From positions 1 through 64,000 of the forward strand of contig CAJOMV010000028.1 in assembly GCA_905235805.1 (NCBI GenBank): DNA of 64,000 nucleotides. The letters run 5' to 3'. Each line of letters starts with the position of its first letter. Position 1 is the stretch's first letter. Under the pieces are notes generated by a model. That model was not told the origin of the DNA. It saw nothing but the letters and a program-made list of their open reading frames with translations, and did no database searches. The stretch comes from an uncultured Ruminiclostridium sp. Lineage in GTDB: Bacteria > Bacillota > Clostridia > Oscillospirales > Ruminococcaceae. A program made the translations under genes and the position numbers. Shown here piece by piece: positions 8,619 through 28,969 of this stretch.

Positions 8619-8644
8619 TCCTATCCCTCTTTTCCGCTTGTATT

Positions 8645-19551: not shown

Positions 19552-20679
19552 ATGAACAAACTGAGTATGGCAAAAATAAGTATTCTGGTGAGCATCACCC
19601 TGTTTTCCATACTTGCTGCCGCTATCATAATCATACTGAATTTCAACAACCGCACGGGCGGTGATGCCTCCGAGGAGGAGCGCATCTGTATAGGGCTGAT
19701 AATGAACGGCAAAGCGGACGACAGGAGCTGGGGGCAATCGCATTATGAGTCCCTTGCCCGCGTTGCCGGTGAAATGGGCGCTGAGCTGGTGTACCGCGAG
19801 GAGGTCCCGGAGGACGAGCATTGCGACGATGTGATTGACGAGCTTGTGAACAGTGCCGGCTGTAAGGTCGTGATCGCGGACTCCTACGGCTACGGCGAGC
19901 AGATAAAAGCCGCCGCTGAGCGGTATCCCGACGTATACTTCCTGCACGCTGCCGGGTCAGAGAGCGGGCACAATATCGGCTCGTTCTTCGGCAGAATGTA
20001 TCAGTTCAGGTATTTAAGCGGCATTATCGCGGGAAACCAGACAAAGACGAATAAAATAGGCTATGTGGCTGCTTTCCCGATAGACGAGGTGAACCGCGGG
20101 ATAAACGCGTTCACACTCGGTGTGCGCAGTGTGAATCCCGAGGCAGAGGTCTATGTCAGCTTCTGCGGCTCATGGACGGACGATGAGGCTGCCGGAGAGT
20201 CCGCGGAGACGCTTATCGGTGAATACGGCATAGACACGCTCACCCTGCACTGCGATTCTCTTGCTCCCCACAGAGCAGCCGACAGCAGGGGCGTGTGGTC
20301 GATAGGCTATAACTACGACAATTCGGAGCTTTTCCCGGATACATACCTGACAGCCTGCGTCTGGGACTGGGACAGCTATTACAGAGAGCAGATACAGTCC
20401 TGCGTTACGGGAAAATTCCGCGGTGAGCATAAGTGGCTCGGTATAGAGAGCGGGATAATGGAGCTGGTCGACCCCGGGAGGAACGGGATAGCCTCACCGG
20501 GATACAGTGAGCCGCTTGAAGCCGCGAAGGCGCGTTTCGAGTCCTTCGGGTACGATGTATTCTACGGACCCGTGACCGACAGCGAGGGCATTGTCAGAGT
20601 CCCGGAGGGCGAATCCATGTCCGACGCGGCGATGCTCGGAAGCTTTGACTGGTATGTGGAGGGCGTCCGCGTTGTTTAA
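19552..20679 (+). CDS. Membrane-anchored BMP/PnrA-type ligand-binding protein
   Basis: N-terminal TM without lipobox Cys; GYVAAFPIDEVNRGINAFTLGVRSVNPEAEVYVSFCGSW typical of BMP family. Confidence 0.88.
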   Translation: MNKLSMAKISILVSITLFSILAAAIIIILNFNNRTGGDASEEERICIGLIMNGKADDRSWGQSHYESLARVAGEMGAELVYREEVPEDEHCDDVIDELVNSAGCKVVIADSYGYGEQIKAAAERYPDVYFLHAAGSESGHNIGSFFGRMYQFRYLSGIIAGNQTKTNKIGYVAAFPIDEVNRGINAFTLGVRSVNPEAEVYVSFCGSWTDDEAAGESAETLIGEYGIDTLTLHCDSLAPHRAADSRGVWSIGYNYDNSELFPDTYLTACVWDWDSYYREQIQSCVTGKFRGEHKWLGIESGIMELVDPGRNGIASPGYSEPLEAAKARFESFGYDVFYGPVTDSEGIVRVPEGESMSDAAMLGSFDWYVEGVRVV

Positions 20680-21781
20680 GAATCTGACAAGACGAGGGAT
20701 AATATACACCGTCGCGTACACACTGCTGTTCGTTGCCGTAACGGTGCTCGCGGTGATACTAATACTCGGCGAGGACGGCTTTCGCAAGGAAAGGACGTAT
20801 GTGGGCTGCATACTGACAGGTACAGCGGACGACGGCGGCTGGAACTCCGACAATTACAGAGGGCTTGCGGAAGCCTGCGCGGACAACGGAGCAGTGCTGC
20901 GCGCGGCGGAGAACGTTCCGGAGGAGCGTGAGCCCTGCATAGAAGCGATACGCCGTCTGGCTGACGAAGGCTGCCGCGTCATATTCCTGACAAGCTACGG
21001 CTATGCGGAGTACGCGGCGGAAGTATCGGGCGAATATCCGAACGTGATGTTCTGCGCCAACAGCCCGGAATACACGGCGGACAATATGGTATACTGCTTC
21101 GCGAGAATGTATCAGGGACGCTACCTCGCGGGGATAGCCGCCGGTCTCGCCACAAGGACGAATGTGACGGGATATGTTGCGGCAATGCCGAACAGCGAGG
21201 TCAACCGCGGGATAAACGCGTTCACTCTCGGGGTGCGCAGCGTAAACCCGGAGGCTAAGGTGCTGGTGCGCTTCACCGGCTCTTGGGACGACCCGCCGGC
21301 TGAGGAAAGCGCGGTCACGCAGCTCGCCGATTTGTCAGCGGACGTGATCGCCTATCATCAGGACAGCGACACAACGGCACAGACCTGTGAGCGGCTCGGC
21401 ATCTCTTTCATAGGCTATAACACAGTTTCGGACAGCTATGCGTCACACATGCTGACCTCTGTAAGCTGCCGCTGGAGAAGGCTGTACGGACTTGTGCTCC
21501 GCGATACCCTGATAGGTAGCGGTGCGTTCGTGAATGACCGCTGGCTCGGGCTCAACGAGATGACGATAATGCTGTCGGAGCCCTCCGACGGAGCCGGCAG
21601 CCTTACAGCCTCCGCGATCACGGCGGCGAAGAGAAGGATAGAAGCGGGGAAGGACGTTTTTTCCGATACGATATATGACAATACCGGAGCGCTTCGCTGC
21701 GGGGAAGGCGAGACCCTCTCCGACAAAACGCTCCTTACGGGCATGGATTGGTTTGCCGAGGGGGTCGAGATAATTGAATAA
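20672..21781 (+). CDS. Second membrane-anchored BMP/PnrA-type ligand-binding protein
   Basis: GYVAAMPNSEVNRGINAFTLGVRSVNPEAKVLVRFTGSW; proposed TTG start overlapping the previous stop. Confidence 0.85.
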   Translation: MFKNLTRRGIIYTVAYTLLFVAVTVLAVILILGEDGFRKERTYVGCILTGTADDGGWNSDNYRGLAEACADNGAVLRAAENVPEEREPCIEAIRRLADEGCRVIFLTSYGYAEYAAEVSGEYPNVMFCANSPEYTADNMVYCFARMYQGRYLAGIAAGLATRTNVTGYVAAMPNSEVNRGINAFTLGVRSVNPEAKVLVRFTGSWDDPPAEESAVTQLADLSADVIAYHQDSDTTAQTCERLGISFIGYNTVSDSYASHMLTSVSCRWRRLYGLVLRDTLIGSGAFVNDRWLGLNEMTIMLSEPSDGAGSLTASAITAAKRRIEAGKDVFSDTIYDNTGALRCGEGETLSDKTLLTGMDWFAEGVEIIE

Positions 21782-24047
21782 GCTGCGAGATATCCTTATA
21801 AACCCCCGTTCCGCCATAAATATCTCATTTATCATAATACTTCTGTTTGTCGGCTTCATGCTCAACACACGTCTGCGGACGCTGATGTATGATTTCACGG
21901 AAAATCAGGTGGCTCGTCAGGCAGAGGTCATCGCCGAAAAGACCGCGGGCGTTCTTATGACTGAAATGGAGGCTTTGAAGTACCGTTCGTCGGTGATCGA
22001 GAACAAGGACGACGACATACAGCAGGTCATGCAGTCCATGTCGGGTATCGGCGATACTCTGCCTATCGGGCTCCTTGCCACTGACGGCAGCGCTGTGTTC
22101 GGCGAGCGTATCTCTCCCGCCGAGTTTTCCGGGGTACAGTCCGCCTTCCGCGGCAATGGAACTATAAGCTACAATTCAAAGAAGGGTCTGCTGTTCTGCT
22201 GGCCGGTATTCCACGGCGAGAATATAAAGTATGTGATGTACGAGCTGTGCCCTCTCGAGAGCATACGCGCAAGGTTCAGCGTGTCCTGCTTTGACGGCAT
22301 GGGCAAGGCTCTCGTCACCTCCCGCAAAAACGAGGTGATAATCCCCTTCAACAACGCCTCCGAGAGCGATATAGAGTTTTTTTACAGCTCGGAGATGTCC
22401 GAAGCCTTCGAGCTGGTGCAGAAGGATATGGAGCGTTCCGCTTCCGCCGCGCAGTTGGTGGAGACAGCGAAGGGGGAGTACTACGTTTTCTCATCGGAGA
22501 TGCCGGAAATGGATTTCTGCCTGTCTGGCTTCGTTGAGTCGGACGTAGCCGCCGCGGGAGCGAACGACATAGTGAGACTTGTTACCAACGTATTCGCGCT
22601 GATAACCATACTCTTCGTTATCGGCTGCGCTTACCTTATACTTACGTCGGCGAGACTGAGCGAGAACGAGGAGCTCCTCCGAGCGAAGCAGGTGGCGGAA
22701 GAAGCCTCCCGAGCAAAGAGCGATTTCCTCGCAAGTATGTCCCACGAGATAAGAACGCCCATAAACGCGATCCTCGGTATGGACGAGCTGATAATACGCG
22801 AGTATGACGACTCACAGCTCCGGCAGTACGCGCTGAATATCCGCAACGCCGGCAACACGCTGATGTCCATAATCAACGATATCCTCGACTTCTCGAAGAT
22901 AGAGTCCGGCAAAATGGAGCTTGTTCCGGTGGAGTACGATGTACCGCTGATGATATACGACCTTGTGAGCATGGAAAAGCCCCGTGCCGAGAAGAAGGAT
23001 CTGACGTTCATAGTGAACGCGGACGAGAATATCCCGCGCACTCTGTACGGTGACAATATCAGGATAAAGCAGTGCATACTCAACCTGCTGACGAACGCCG
23101 TGAAGTACACCGAGCAGGGCTGTGTGGCTATGACGGTGGGCTTTGAGCAGACCGACAGAGACCATATAAAGCTCCGCGTATCGGTCAAGGATACCGGCAT
23201 CGGCATAAAGCCGGAGGATATCGAGCGGCTGTTCACGCCCTTTGAACGCGTGGATCTCGAAAGAAACCGCTCCGTAGAGGGCACGGGTCTCGGTATGAGC
23301 ATAGTTAAGCGCCTGCTCGCCATGATGGATTCACAGCTTGAGGTGACCAGTGAGTACGGGAAGGGCTCCGAGTTCTCCTTCGAGGTGCTCCAGGAGGTCC
23401 GCGACCCACGTCCGATGGGCAATTACAAGACGAGCTACGACAAGGTGATAGAAACAGAGGTAGTATATCACGAGCAGTTCATAGCTCCAGAAGCGAGAAT
23501 ACTTATAGTAGACGATATAGAGATGAACCTGACGGTAGCGTCGGGACTTCTGAAAAAGACGGAGATACAGGTGGATACCGCTCTCGGCGGCAAGGAAGCG
23601 CTTGAGCTGACGGCAAAGCAGAAGTACGATGTTCTGTTCATAGATGACAGAATGCCGGGCATGAGCGGCGGGGAAATGCTACGCGAGCTGCGTTCCCGCA
23701 CCGATGACCCGAACAGCGCTGTGCCTTGCATAGTGCTTACCGCAAACGCGATAGCCGGTGCCCGTGACAGCTACATGAAGCTGGGCTTTGAGGATTACCT
23801 TTCAAAGCCGATAGACGGCACCGAGTTCGAGAAAATGCTCCAGCGCTATCTGCCGAAGGAGAAGGTGCTGATACCCGGCAGCTCCGCTGCGGAAAAGGCT
23901 GCGAGAAGCCGCAGGAGCAAGTCCGCTCCGCCCGAGGTAACGGCGGAGACAATGGCGGAAATGGAGAAGTTCCGCGAGTATATAGGTGAAGACGATAAGC
24001 TGAGCGACGCGATGCAGCTCCTGATGAGCAGAACGCGCAAGCACTGA
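21774..24047 (+). CDS. Hybrid sensor histidine kinase/response regulator
   Basis: HisKA SHEIRTPINAILGMDE; HATPase NLLTNAVKYT, DTGIGI, GTGLGMSIV; REC LIVDDIEMN...LFIDDRMPGMSGG; TTG start overlapping upstream stop. Confidence 0.93.
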   Translation: MNKLRDILINPRSAINISFIIILLFVGFMLNTRLRTLMYDFTENQVARQAEVIAEKTAGVLMTEMEALKYRSSVIENKDDDIQQVMQSMSGIGDTLPIGLLATDGSAVFGERISPAEFSGVQSAFRGNGTISYNSKKGLLFCWPVFHGENIKYVMYELCPLESIRARFSVSCFDGMGKALVTSRKNEVIIPFNNASESDIEFFYSSEMSEAFELVQKDMERSASAAQLVETAKGEYYVFSSEMPEMDFCLSGFVESDVAAAGANDIVRLVTNVFALITILFVIGCAYLILTSARLSENEELLRAKQVAEEASRAKSDFLASMSHEIRTPINAILGMDELIIREYDDSQLRQYALNIRNAGNTLMSIINDILDFSKIESGKMELVPVEYDVPLMIYDLVSMEKPRAEKKDLTFIVNADENIPRTLYGDNIRIKQCILNLLTNAVKYTEQGCVAMTVGFEQTDRDHIKLRVSVKDTGIGIKPEDIERLFTPFERVDLERNRSVEGTGLGMSIVKRLLAMMDSQLEVTSEYGKGSEFSFEVLQEVRDPRPMGNYKTSYDKVIETEVVYHEQFIAPEARILIVDDIEMNLTVASGLLKKTEIQVDTALGGKEALELTAKQKYDVLFIDDRMPGMSGGEMLRELRSRTDDPNSAVPCIVLTANAIAGARDSYMKLGFEDYLSKPIDGTEFEKMLQRYLPKEKVLIPGSSAAEKAARSRRSKSAPPEVTAETMAEMEKFREYIGEDDKLSDAMQLLMSRTRKH

Positions 24048-24089
24048 CAGTATCCCGTAGAGTAGATGCGGAAAGGCAGGTGAGGCTCC

Positions 24090-26942
24090 CTGAATTACAA
24101 CGTAGTCTTTGAGATAGCGGCAATACCGTTTATAGTGACTCTTTTCGTATTCATGCTCGTACGATACAGGGAACGCACCAAGCAGGACAAGTACTTTCTG
24201 AATTTGGTCATTTTTGTGCTGGTCACAGATGTGCTCGATGTCCTGCTCGTATATATAACGAATCTGAAGCTGGCTTCCTCCGGTGTCATCATAGTGATGA
24301 ACACGCTCGACCATATATCGGCGGTGTGCTCTACATTTTCATTTGTGCAGTATGTGTACGCGTATGTGGATTATAAGGCTGACAGACCCTCCCGCAGGAT
24401 ATTGTCATATGTCAACCTGTTCGTGCTGCTCGGTACGATGATATTGTATATGCAGAACTTCATCACCGGAAATATACTGACGGTGGACAGCGACGGTGTC
24501 TATTACGAGGGACCGCTGTTCATGTTCGCGACCTATCTTCTGCCCTCGTATTTTCTTATCTATGCTACCGCGATAATAGTAGTCTATAACAGGTCCTTCC
24601 GAAAGATACAGCTTGTGTCGGTGCTTGCGGGAATAGGCTTTATCGTGCTGTTCGCGATACTCCAGATGTTTGTGCTTACGGACTATCTGATAGTTTACTT
24701 CGCGTCCTCTGTGGCGATGTTCCTGATATTCCTGTCCCATGAGTCGCCGGAGTACCACAAGCTCGAGCGTGCGAACGAGGAGCTCCGCAAGTCCCGAGAG
24801 GAGGAGCAGCAGGCTAAACTGGAGGCGATAGCGGCAGACGAGGCAAAGACCCGCTTCATGTCGCAGATGTCACATGAGATAAGAACTCCCATCAACGCGA
24901 TAATGGGTTATAATGACATAATAATGAACGATACCGACGAGCCGGAGACCCGTGAATATTCCCGCAAGGCAAGACTTGCCGCGAGAAGACTGCTGGACTT
25001 CTTCGAGGGTATGTTCAATTTTATAGATATAGAGGGGAGCGAGGAGCTTCTCCGCGAGATAGCCGCGGGAACCGAGACAGAGACAGAGGTATCCCCCGAG
25101 CAGGCTCCCGAGGAGACCGTGCCGTACACTGTCACTGTGGCGCAGGACCACAGAATGCTGGTGGTGGACGATACCGAGATGAATGTCGATCTGCTCGTCC
25201 GTATGCTCAAGGGCATGGGCTTCGTCACAGACACCGCTCCCGACGGCGAGAAGGCTCTGGACAAGATACGGAGCAATACCTACGACCTCATATTCATGGA
25301 TCACATGATGCCGGTAATGGACGGTATGGAGGCAATGCGGATAATACGGGAGCAGCATCTCTGCGACGAAACTCCCGTGATAATGGTCACCGCGAATACA
25401 GTCAAGGGCGAGCGGGAGAAATACCTGAACGCCGGCTTTGCGGAGTATGTGACCAAGCCGTTCACGAATAAGTCGATAAAGGACGCGATACTGAAGCTCC
25501 TTCCGGTTGACGAGGAGTTCATCAGCCGTTCGTCGTGGGAGGAGGAGTGGCAGATACTCCAGAAGGAGCTGCCTTTCCTGCGCCTGTCGAGCGCGAGAGA
25601 GTACTTCCGCGGGGATTCGGATATGTTCGCGGACACCCTGAAGGACTACGCCATGACAGGCATACTTCCGAAGCTGGAGGAATATATAGAGAAGGGCGAT
25701 TACTACAACTACCGTGCTCTTCTTTGCACGGCGAAGGATTCCTCCGTGCTGATAGGAGCAGACAGTATAGCCGATCAGGCTGCGGAGCTGGAGGCGCTGT
25801 ACCGCCGTGGCAATATAGAGGAGCTCAAGGTCAAGCACATCATCTTCGCCGATAAGGTGAGAAAGACGCTCAAGCAGCTTGCTGCCGCGCTGAACCTTAC
25901 CGAGTCGGAAGCGGACGTGATAGCGGGATTGACGCAGCTTGACGCCCGTCCGCTGATACTTGTCATAGATGACGACCCCGTGCTCTGTGAGCAGATAAAG
26001 CAGATACTTTCCAAGGAGTATCGCATAGAGACGGCAGATACCGGCGAGGATGGCATTATCCGCGCGCAGGAGGACGCTCCGGCGCTTATCCTGCTTGACG
26101 TGAACCTGCTGAGCATGAACGGCTTCGACGTTATACGCGCTCTTGCCTCGATAGAGGAGACATCGGAGATACCGGTAGTGTTCATGACCGCGGACGAGAG
26201 CGGCGAGGCAGAGGTAAAGGGTTTTCGGAGCGGAGGAGCGGACTTTGTGCGCAAGCCCTTCATACCCGAGGTGCTCATGCGCCGTGTCAGCCGGATAGTG
26301 GAGCTCTCCGCGCTGCAGAAGCACCTGCGGCATGAGATAAGCCGCCGCACCGAGAAGATAGGGCATCTCTCCCGCGAGGTAATGCTCGCGCTGTCAAAGG
26401 CGGTGGACGCCAAGGATAAATACACGAACGACCATTCCCAGCGGGTGGCTCAGTACTCGGCATGGATAGCCCGCCAGCTCGGCAAGACAAAGCAGGAGCA
26501 GGACGCGCTGTACATAGAGGGTCTGCTGCACGACGTGGGCAAGATAGGGGTACATGAGGAGATAATCAACAAGCCGGGCAGACTGACTGCCGACGAATAT
26601 GAGGAGATAAAGCAGCACACGGTAATGGGCTACGAGATACTGAAGGTGATAACCGAGATGCCCGACGCCGCGAAGGCTGCCCGCTGGCACCATGAGCGTT
26701 ACGACGGCAAGGGCTATCCCGACGGACTGGCGGGAACGGATATACCGGAAAACGCCCGTATAATCTGCGTCGCGGATTCCTACGACGCGATGACCTCCCG
26801 CCGCGCGTATCAGGCACTCAAGCCGCAGGCGGAGGTTCGGGCCGAGATAGTCCGCTGCAAGGGTACGCAGTTCGACCCGGATATCGCGGACGCAATGGTG
26901 AGGATAATAGACGAGGATACAAATTACGAGCTGCACGGATAG
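24090..26942 (+). CDS. Composite signalling protein: multi-TM N-terminus, HisKA-like, REC, degenerate Hpt, REC, HD-GYP
   Basis: SHEIRTPINAIMGYND without HATPase boxes; LVVDDTEMN...LIFMDHMMPVMDG; LVIDDDPVL...ILLDVNLLSMNG; HDVGKIGVHEEI...HHERYDGKGYPDGL. Start possibly CTG 24090 after AGGTGAGG; computed ORF starts at GTG 24135. Confidence 0.85.
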   Translation: MNYNVVFEIAAIPFIVTLFVFMLVRYRERTKQDKYFLNLVIFVLVTDVLDVLLVYITNLKLASSGVIIVMNTLDHISAVCSTFSFVQYVYAYVDYKADRPSRRILSYVNLFVLLGTMILYMQNFITGNILTVDSDGVYYEGPLFMFATYLLPSYFLIYATAIIVVYNRSFRKIQLVSVLAGIGFIVLFAILQMFVLTDYLIVYFASSVAMFLIFLSHESPEYHKLERANEELRKSREEEQQAKLEAIAADEAKTRFMSQMSHEIRTPINAIMGYNDIIMNDTDEPETREYSRKARLAARRLLDFFEGMFNFIDIEGSEELLREIAAGTETETEVSPEQAPEETVPYTVTVAQDHRMLVVDDTEMNVDLLVRMLKGMGFVTDTAPDGEKALDKIRSNTYDLIFMDHMMPVMDGMEAMRIIREQHLCDETPVIMVTANTVKGEREKYLNAGFAEYVTKPFTNKSIKDAILKLLPVDEEFISRSSWEEEWQILQKELPFLRLSSAREYFRGDSDMFADTLKDYAMTGILPKLEEYIEKGDYYNYRALLCTAKDSSVLIGADSIADQAAELEALYRRGNIEELKVKHIIFADKVRKTLKQLAAALNLTESEADVIAGLTQLDARPLILVIDDDPVLCEQIKQILSKEYRIETADTGEDGIIRAQEDAPALILLDVNLLSMNGFDVIRALASIEETSEIPVVFMTADESGEAEVKGFRSGGADFVRKPFIPEVLMRRVSRIVELSALQKHLRHEISRRTEKIGHLSREVMLALSKAVDAKDKYTNDHSQRVAQYSAWIARQLGKTKQEQDALYIEGLLHDVGKIGVHEEIINKPGRLTADEYEEIKQHTVMGYEILKVITEMPDAAKAARWHHERYDGKGYPDGLAGTDIPENARIICVADSYDAMTSRRAYQALKPQAEVRAEIVRCKGTQFDPDIADAMVRIIDEDTNYELHG

Positions 26943-26952
26943 GGGTGAGGAA

Positions 26953-27996
26953 ATGAGCGTTAAGATCCTGATAGTGGACGACAGCAGGGTAGAGCGGAAT
27001 TTCCTTGCGGGAATGCTGAAAAAGCTCGGAGCGGAGCCCATTACAACGGAAAGCTGCGACGAGGGAACGGAGGCTGCTTGTCTGGAAAGGTTTGACCTGC
27101 TGTTCATCGACTACTTCATGCCGGAGGCTGACGGAGTTCACACTCTCCGCGAGATACGGCAGAACGAAAGAAGTAAGAACGCCGATACCCCCGCGGTAGC
27201 TCTCGGGACATCTGACTCCGCGTCTGACAGTGATTTCTTTGCGGAGCACGGCTTTGTGAATTACATCGAAAAGCCGGTCGACCCCGATGTGCTCCACGCG
27301 GCGCTGATATTGTATCTCCCGGAGGAGAAGCGGCGTGAGATAGGAACGGCAGTGAGTGAAACTGAGAAGGAACAGACGAAGCTATCCGTGCTTCCGGAGT
27401 GGCTGGGCGAGCTGACCGAGCTCTCGACGGAGGACGGTATCAGAAACTGCGGCACTGAGGAGGATTACCTCGGCGCGCTGAAGATATTCCACCGCTCGAT
27501 AGAGTCGATGTCGGACGAGATAGAGGGGTATTACGACACCGGTGACCTGAAGAACTACACCATAAAGGTGCATGCCCTGAAAAGCTCGGCGAGGATAATC
27601 GGACTGTCGGAGCTGTCGGAGCTTGCAAAGCAGCTCGAAGCGGCAGGGGACAGGGAAGACACGCAGTTCATTGAGCAGAACACCGGGACGCTGCTGGAGC
27701 TGTACCGCGGATACAGGGAAAAGCTCTCGCGGTTGTCGGAGGATAACAAGGCGCGGAAAGCGGACAAGCCTCCCGCGGACAAGGACTTCCTCGACGACGC
27801 GTTTTCATCGCTGGACGACTTTGCGGGGCAGATGGACTACGATCTTGTGGAGATGGTGGTCGATTCGGTGCGTGAGTATTCGCTCGGTGAACGCGAGCAG
27901 GCGATATTTGACGAGATAGACGAGGCGTTCATGGAACTCGATTGGAACAGGATTAGAACAGCCGCGCGGAAATACTTTGAAGATAATGAAGAGTAA
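26953..27996 (+). CDS. Response regulator with C-terminal Hpt domain
   Basis: REC LIVDDSRVERN...LLFIDYFMPEADG; Hpt IKVHALKSSARIIGLSELSELAKQLE. Confidence 0.88.
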   Translation: MSVKILIVDDSRVERNFLAGMLKKLGAEPITTESCDEGTEAACLERFDLLFIDYFMPEADGVHTLREIRQNERSKNADTPAVALGTSDSASDSDFFAEHGFVNYIEKPVDPDVLHAALILYLPEEKRREIGTAVSETEKEQTKLSVLPEWLGELTELSTEDGIRNCGTEEDYLGALKIFHRSIESMSDEIEGYYDTGDLKNYTIKVHALKSSARIIGLSELSELAKQLEAAGDREDTQFIEQNTGTLLELYRGYREKLSRLSEDNKARKADKPPADKDFLDDAFSSLDDFAGQMDYDLVEMVVDSVREYSLGEREQAIFDEIDEAFMELDWNRIRTAARKYFEDNEE

Positions 27997-28014
27997 AGAA
28001 AGGAAAATTACACA

Positions 28015-28872
28015 ATGCTGAAAAATGTAATGATCATCAGTACTTCAGAGAGCTTTGCTATTAAATCCATGGAGCAGAAGCTTCTCGCCGTGGAGATCAG
28101 TGCCTATCAGGTAGTCGCAAGGATCGCCGATATCGGAAGCAATATCGAGCGCGCGGGGCTTATCGTTCTCTATCTCGACGAGCGCATGGCGGCAATGACC
28201 GCGTCGCTCCAGAATATGCTTTCGTATCTCAACGACAAAATGTATGAGTCTAACAAAATGCTCATCATCATAGCCAAACGCAAGGACTACGAGACGGCTA
28301 TGCGCTACATCTCCGAGGACTTTGTGCTCCAGTTCTTTGATCGTCCGATGAACCTTGACGCGTTCGTCCAGACAGTGTTTGAGTATATGAACGAGGGCGA
28401 GAAGAGCATGGAGGAGGTCAAGGCGGACATCAAGAAGGAGAATGAGGAGGCCGCCGCAGCCCAGCAGCAGAAGCGAAAGTTCACCGATGAGATGGTGGTG
28501 GTCAAGAAAAAGAAGATACTGCTGGTCGATGACGATGCCTCATACCTGCGTATCATCAGAAACTGGCTCAAGGACGGCTATGAGGTCGGCGTTGCAAGCT
28601 CGGGGCTGCAGGCGATAATGTGGCTGGCGAGAAATGAGGTGGATCTGATACTGCTCGACTATAAAATGCCGGTAGCGTCCGGGGCGCAGATCTATGCTAT
28701 GCTCAAGAATGATTCCCAGACTCAGAATATCCCGGTGTTCTTCCTTACCGGAAACAGTGAACGTGAGAGCGTCCTCGAGATCCTGAAGCTCAACCCCGAG
28801 GGATATCTGCTCAAGACCTTCGACAGAAAGGCACTTCTCACAAGACTTGAAGAATTCTTTGAATTCCGTTAG
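28015..28872 (+). CDS. Tandem-receiver protein (degenerate N-terminal REC plus canonical REC)
   Basis: C-terminal ILLVDDDASYLRI...LILLDYKMPVASG...VFFLTGNSE; N-terminal domain receiver-like without clear phosphoacceptor. Confidence 0.8.
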   Translation: MLKNVMIISTSESFAIKSMEQKLLAVEISAYQVVARIADIGSNIERAGLIVLYLDERMAAMTASLQNMLSYLNDKMYESNKMLIIIAKRKDYETAMRYISEDFVLQFFDRPMNLDAFVQTVFEYMNEGEKSMEEVKADIKKENEEAAAAQQQKRKFTDEMVVVKKKKILLVDDDASYLRIIRNWLKDGYEVGVASSGLQAIMWLARNEVDLILLDYKMPVASGAQIYAMLKNDSQTQNIPVFFLTGNSERESVLEILKLNPEGYLLKTFDRKALLTRLEEFFEFR

Positions 28873-28877
28873 AGCGC

Positions 28878-28910
28878 GGCTCCGTTGTATCGGCACGATA
28901 TGGCGGAGCT
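28878..28910 (+). other. Stem-loop downstream of the signalling cluster
   Basis: GGCTCCG-ttg-TATCG-gca-CGATA-tgg-CGGAGCT; no T-tract immediately after. Confidence 0.45.
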
Positions 28911-28969
28911 GTTCATGTTTCCGCGTTTTATAGAACAGTATATTTTTTGAATTTTCATGCAGAAAAATA

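Follow-up and report, generated by a model that had tools for sequence, protein, structure and literature searches.

In its parts, the known system closest to the one described here is the Med-KinD pair of Bacillus subtilis, in which Med, a BMP-family membrane protein, is reported to be needed by KinD (Banse 2011, cited in PMC11210211 and PMC3911142). The structure 2hqb, deposited as a ComK activator (Med) and the Med homologue of B. halodurans, is a BMP protein according to both sequence and fold matches. KinD itself has a TM-dCache architecture (PMC11210211). In LuxP-LuxQ, TorT-TorS and XylFII-LytS a membrane kinase receives the ligand at its ectodomain from a bilobal binding protein, an arrangement that we propose here too. 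LuxQ and TorS are hybrid kinases. Binding protein-driven sensor kinases of the LuxPQ, TorTS and XylFII-LytS types are established (PMC6321045), and in dCache_1PU receptors of the McpH type it is the Cache domain that binds the purine; in one case c-di-GMP was shown to be affected (PMC11245519). A literature search of limited coverage returned no description of a BMP-hybrid kinase system or of a BMP1-BMP2-kinase cassette.

Here we analyse a block of genes within a 64,000-nucleotide stretch of DNA, hereafter the window, from an uncultured Ruminiclostridium sp. (contig CAJOMV010000028.1). We propose, with a probability of roughly 0.7, that the block is a receptor operon and not a transporter, in which a purine input received by BMP proteins would pass through a kinase and the protein P5 to c-di-GMP breakdown. 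The proposal draws on gene linkage, the conservation of domains and residues, the absence of ABC partners and the identity of pocket residues, and from these we infer the ligand, the physical contact, the direction of phosphate flow and the enzymatic output.

Results

Organization of the operon

Six collinear open reading frames lie on the + strand between positions 19552 and 28872 in the ORF listing of the window, and their positions and Pfam domains agree with the six-gene block that an earlier note on this DNA had described:

19552..20679, + strand: BMP1, 375 aa, a signal anchor (TM at about 11-29) followed by a BMP/PnrA-type domain (PF02608)
20654..21781, + strand: BMP2, 375 aa, a second anchored BMP protein (PF02608, N-terminal TM)
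21774..24047, + strand: hybrid histidine kinase, TM-dCache-TM-HisKA (H324)-HATPase-REC (D624), no Hpt, as predicted by Pfam, AF2 and Foldseek
24135..26942, + strand: P4, 935 aa, multi-TM-HisKA-REC-degenerate Hpt-REC-HD-GYP (Pfam, motif counts)
26953..27996, + strand: P5, 347 aa, a putative REC-Hpt shuttle (H207; Pfam REC and Hpt)
28015..28872, + strand: P6, 285 aa, a degenerate receiver and an intact receiver (D215), no output domain (Pfam REC)
28876..28912, + strand: terminator-like hairpin between P6 and carB, by pattern match only

The first three genes do overlap, as had been noted, and the junction sequence corrects the extents to 26 nt for BMP1/BMP2 and 8 nt for BMP2/kinase. The kinase gene, encoding 757 aa, begins at a TTG start codon, the likely start of BMP2 is the ATG at 20654, which gives 375 aa, and the true start of P4 may lie somewhat upstream of 24135, most orthologues being 945-950 aa long. 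A promoter-like site is found 5′ of carB. Upstream of BMP1, a gene for a Suv3-type helicase is separated from it by a gap of only 32 nt, so the transcription unit may begin further upstream; three relatives (loci L116, L117 and L121) have the cassette without the helicase.

Linkage of BMP and kinase genes across genomes

Linkage was examined with the kinase sensor domain as the sole query. A scan of GTDB genomes kept 80 loci with the kinase sensor, about a dozen of which are window-type genomes again, under public names. These loci span Bacillota, Synergistota and Succinivibrionaceae and come from rumen and gut Clostridia, Lachnospiraceae, Selenomonas, Anaerovibrio, Schwartzia, Synergistaceae and Succinivibrionaceae; Selenomonas ruminantium HD4 and ATCC 12561 and Anaerovibrio sp. 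RM50 are cultured carriers. In 78 of the 80 the kinase gene is immediately preceded by BMP genes, counting L192 as adjacent, where a 181 nt overlap is due to an extended ORF start, and the other two (L200 and L216) begin too near a contig end to judge. Both BMPs are present in 53 of the 63 loci with enough upstream DNA, and the 8-nt overlap between BMP and kinase is common to half of the collection (40/80). Distances among BMP proteins also correlate with distances among kinases (r=0.74 for BMP1 and 0.86 for BMP2, against a permuted maximum of 0.15). The conserved BMP-kinase linkage anticipated for this operon is thus found, and its true spread may be larger, since the scan pattern favours kinases near the window type.

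Within the genus, the kinase sensor occurs in 21 of 71 genomes, with BMP genes beside the kinase in the fetched loci. The window type, BMP1-(BMP2)-kinase-P4-P5-P6, occurs in fourteen genomes, in some of them cut by contig ends; BMP2, missing from 7 of these 14 loci, is dispensable in some lineages. In six others the cassette is of a second type, whose kinase is more distant and which includes both BMPs (in L125, BMP1 is lost at a contig end), followed by REC/HD-GYP proteins in 5/5 readable loci. The sole strong match outside the genus in a sample of 396 genomes from the order is G071, in which a BMP adjoins the kinase (L035), and in a phylum sample of 398 genomes the cassette kinase sensor is patchy, occurring in 6. 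Kinases of the Selenomonas type and of Synergistaceae share about 36-42% identity with the window kinase, but those of the second type in its own genus only 26-29%, a pattern suggesting that the cassette has moved horizontally.

Weak matches to the kinase sensor in G078, G294, G261 and G324 have no BMP neighbour and were set aside as other kinases. Genome G481, whose sensor domain does not differ from that of the S. ruminantium ATCC 12561 query, holds four kinase sensor copies, so the cassette kinase has multiplied there. Just after the cassette of S. ruminantium HD4 lies a gene for a sodium:alanine symporter-SBP_bac_3 fusion (L204:13630-15903), and a free SBP_bac_3 protein follows the cassette in L163.

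Family, anchor and fold of BMP1 and BMP2

Matches to PF02608 place both proteins in the BMP/PnrA family (3.8e-48 and 164.5 bits for BMP1, 2.2e-39 and 135.7 bits for BMP2; curated Pfam cut-off 24.1). As Pfam names PF02608 proteins ABC transporter substrate-binding, this widespread cassette can easily be annotated as part of an importer. A vitamin B6 label was rejected, the match to NCBIfam ABC_BMP_B6 being distant (59 bits vs a cut-off of 400). Inspection of both N termini in the window found a TM-like segment and no lipobox, as the first reading had it. The same holds for the wider set of sensor BMPs, with a credible lipobox in 0/129 and an N-terminal TM-like segment in all; most ABC-linked BMPs have a lipobox, and the L035 BMP has a possible one. 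Lipobox-like matches in eight BMP2 proteins were discarded because they fall outside any signal peptide, in the strand (VGCV) that comes first after the TM segment, as was one in BMP1 that precedes the TM in an extended part of the ORF. In a tree, sensor BMPs form one clade with full support, apart from ABC-linked BMPs, with BMP2 as one clade and BMP1 plus the L035 protein as another.

The AF2 model of BMP1 (pLDDT 90) has guanine-bound AtzT (6pi5) as its top PDB match (TM 0.93 by target length, rmsd 1.8 Å), and AtzT and Brucella 3s99 are its closest solved folds (TM 0.93-0.94 by target length). By sequence, too, BMP1 matches AtzT/3s99 best (4e-52), 2hqb being more distant (1.7e-25). AtzT and 3s99 share the fold and pocket residues of BMP1, but they are about 30% identical to it and are treated as ABC-type binding proteins. 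We know of no kinase partner for either.

Anchored BMPs also occur in another signalling setting. In the window's own genome (contig C133, L053:5093-9852) a Reg_prop/Y_Y_Y propeller HD-GYP protein of 1183 aa is followed by a BMP with an N-terminal anchor, an ATG at 8641, a 4 nt overlap with the HD-GYP gene and an intact purine-type pocket. This pairing recurs in L072 and L073, and its BMPs form a separate clade in the tree; the L072 and L073 proteins are near-identical, though one genome (G379) is of the same genus and the other (G319) of another, reflecting recent transfer or shared contamination. G319 has a further BMP in a signalling context, a lipobox-bearing one with a chemoreceptor (sCache_3_3, MCPsignal) and a histidine kinase nearby (L041:4648-9630, contig C2).

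Pocket residues and the likely ligand

The pocket of AtzT is formed by Tyr45, Ser97, Glu165, Trp194, Asn218 and Asn220 (PMC6834077). Aligned with it, BMP1 and BMP2 of the window both have W, S, Y, E, W, H and D, the last two of which match the adenine-modelled Brucella 3s99. Among 66 BMP1 proteins the pocket reads aromatic in 66, S in 64, E in 59, W in 65, H in 65, and D or N in 66, and it is kept in nearly all of 64 BMP2 proteins. These residues make an extracellular purine nucleobase the most likely ligand, which refines the nucleoside-type ligand suggested earlier: the pocket is of the purine-nucleobase (AtzT/3s99) type, not simply a nucleoside type. A phosphoribosyltransferase gene adjoins several ABC-linked BMP relatives. 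In a cassette-bearing locus, L194:12639-14345, a gene for adenine deaminase directly follows BMP1-BMP2-kinase, which fits the purine theme.

The same receptor might instead read a nucleoside, another heterocycle or a diverged signal, a variant to which we give a minor but real share. AtzT itself also accepts 2-hydroxyatrazine (PMC6834077), the structural matches show nucleoside and riboflavin binders in the wider BMP family, position 220 varies between D and N among sensor BMPs, and Glu165 is replaced by Gln in 6/66 BMP1 and 21/64 BMP2 proteins, so ligands may vary. However, hardly any variation is seen in Ser97, His218 or the stacking pair, and the nearest known structures have guanine or adenine bound, which argues for a purine nucleobase. 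Less probable still is that the BMPs act without a ligand, as co-factors by which the kinase is stabilised or turned on, a role that Med might have for KinD, the pocket being a relic. The dispensability of BMP2 would suit such a role, as would the broken BMP1 pockets of L113 and L122, both of which lack BMP2; together with the seven window-type loci without BMP2, these suggest that ligand binding may not always matter. Pocket columns are nevertheless conserved above average across phyla (0.82-0.86 vs 0.59-0.65).

ABC importer genes

None of the 80 cassette loci contains a BMP-type ABC permease gene, and, as already noted for the window, there is no BMP-type ABC gene near its operon. A PF02653 permease was found in none of 13 of the 21 carrier genomes of the genus, the window's draft genome included, and in some form in the other 8; by comparison, PF02653 matches four times in each of three ABC-BMP genomes from this genus. 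Since the window genome is 80.7% complete, its own lack of a permease is not proof, and G415, G420 and G426 (97-98% complete) carry the argument. The window BMPs have neither a permease in their locus or in the draft genome nor a lipobox. The closest BMP relatives outside the cassette sit mostly beside an ABC ATPase and BPD_transp_2 permeases, but the window BMPs belong to a separate clade and their cassettes are permease-free, which upholds the original view that they are not importer parts. That they are normal substrate-binding proteins of an importer encoded elsewhere, sharing the operon for regulation only, is very improbable: such relatives and the 8 permease-bearing genomes would allow it, but 13 carriers have no PF02653 permease, the sensor clade has anchors in place of lipoboxes, and the linkage kept across phyla is to the kinase.

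Kinase ectodomain

Between its two TMs the kinase has a predicted dCache ectodomain: residues 30-275, modelled by AF2 with a pLDDT of 85, match dCache domains in Foldseek (best 3.1e-10), with no Pfam match. A W-[FY] pair in the Cache pocket is conserved in dCache_1PU, dCache_1AA and dCache_1AM sensors that bind their ligands directly (PMC11245519). This pair is absent from the ectodomain of 21/21 kinases, the single match sitting in a TM segment.

Phosphorelay and c-di-GMP output

Pfam assigns HisKA, HATPase and REC domains to the 757-aa kinase, and its catalytic residues are kept in orthologues. It alone has an intact HATPase, as the earlier note had read; in P4, which also has two RECs and an HD domain, no HATPase accompanies the HisKA. 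The HisKA-REC-Hpt-like-REC-HD-GYP architecture given for P4 stands, except that its Hpt-like stretch is degenerate, the His being replaced by Cys in 13 and Ser in 1 of 14 orthologues. Its HD-GYP motifs, HDVGK and HHE[RH]YDG[KR]GYP, are intact in all 14, and P4 is a predicted c-di-GMP phosphodiesterase output. P5 keeps the REC and Hpt catalytic residues in its orthologues, and its Hpt motif, KVHALKSSARIIG, is invariant in 14/14. With no Hpt in the kinase and a degenerate one in P4, H207 of P5 is the sole intact Hpt of the window operon, and phosphate would be able to pass only through it. Of the tandem receivers attributed to P6, the second is intact (D215) and the first is degenerate, with STS in place of the acidic pair and Arg in place of Lys; Pfam finds one REC in P6 and likewise one, in the C-terminal half, in the short proteins beside the S. 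ruminantium cassette.

A C-terminal Hpt is present in 57 of 60 other kinases of >650 aa and in 0/11 window-type kinases, which have P5 instead; by sequence, the window lineage has its Hpt in a separate protein. In 38 of 68 readable neighbourhoods the closest genes of the operon include one for a GGDEF or HD-GYP protein, REC-GGDEF neighbours being confirmed by Pfam, and the other 30 have none among the counted genes.

Discussion

The earlier note had regarded the BMPs as dedicated sensors for the hybrid kinase, and our comparisons support that suggestion, its mechanism being inferred. In the receptor operon that we propose, BMP1 and BMP2 would be held outside the membrane by their N-terminal helices and would have a small metabolite from outside the cell as their ligand, most probably a purine nucleobase. 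Bound or unbound, alone or paired, a BMP would then touch the dCache ectodomain of the kinase and change its activity. Phosphate would move from H324 to D624 of the kinase and on to H207 of P5, and from there to the receivers of P4 and of the two REC proteins, altering c-di-GMP breakdown.

Med-KinD resembles this arrangement in combining a BMP protein with a dCache kinase, as judged here by Pfam, AF2 and Foldseek. In contrast to that pair, the cassette has two paralogous BMPs in one operon with a hybrid kinase, a relay of its own and HD-GYP/GGDEF outputs; Med is described as a lipoprotein, whereas the sensor BMPs have no lipobox. They are also nearer to AtzT/3s99 than to Med, which argues against orthology. 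With the LuxPQ type the cassette shares the linkage between a binding-protein gene and a kinase that has an extracytoplasmic domain; it differs from LuxPQ, TorTS and XylFII-LytS in its PnrA/BMP family, two paralogues, predicted dCache ectodomain and predicted c-di-GMP output. A probable purine input through a dCache receptor is common to dCache_1PU and the cassette, but the cassette kinase has no W-[FY] pair and a separate BMP has the purine-type pocket.

More tentatively, and with the odds somewhat against it, BMP1 and BMP2 may jointly control a single dCache kinase and so sense purine nucleobases outside the cell, in a cassette that has passed between phyla and tunes c-di-GMP behaviour. If the purine reading is right, a kinase family that cultured rumen strains possess would gain a ligand open to testing, and c-di-GMP control in the rumen community would have an input from outside the cell. 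If the paired receptor is real as well, c-di-GMP behaviour, and with it surface life, would be tuned to nucleobase supply in rumen and gut anaerobes.
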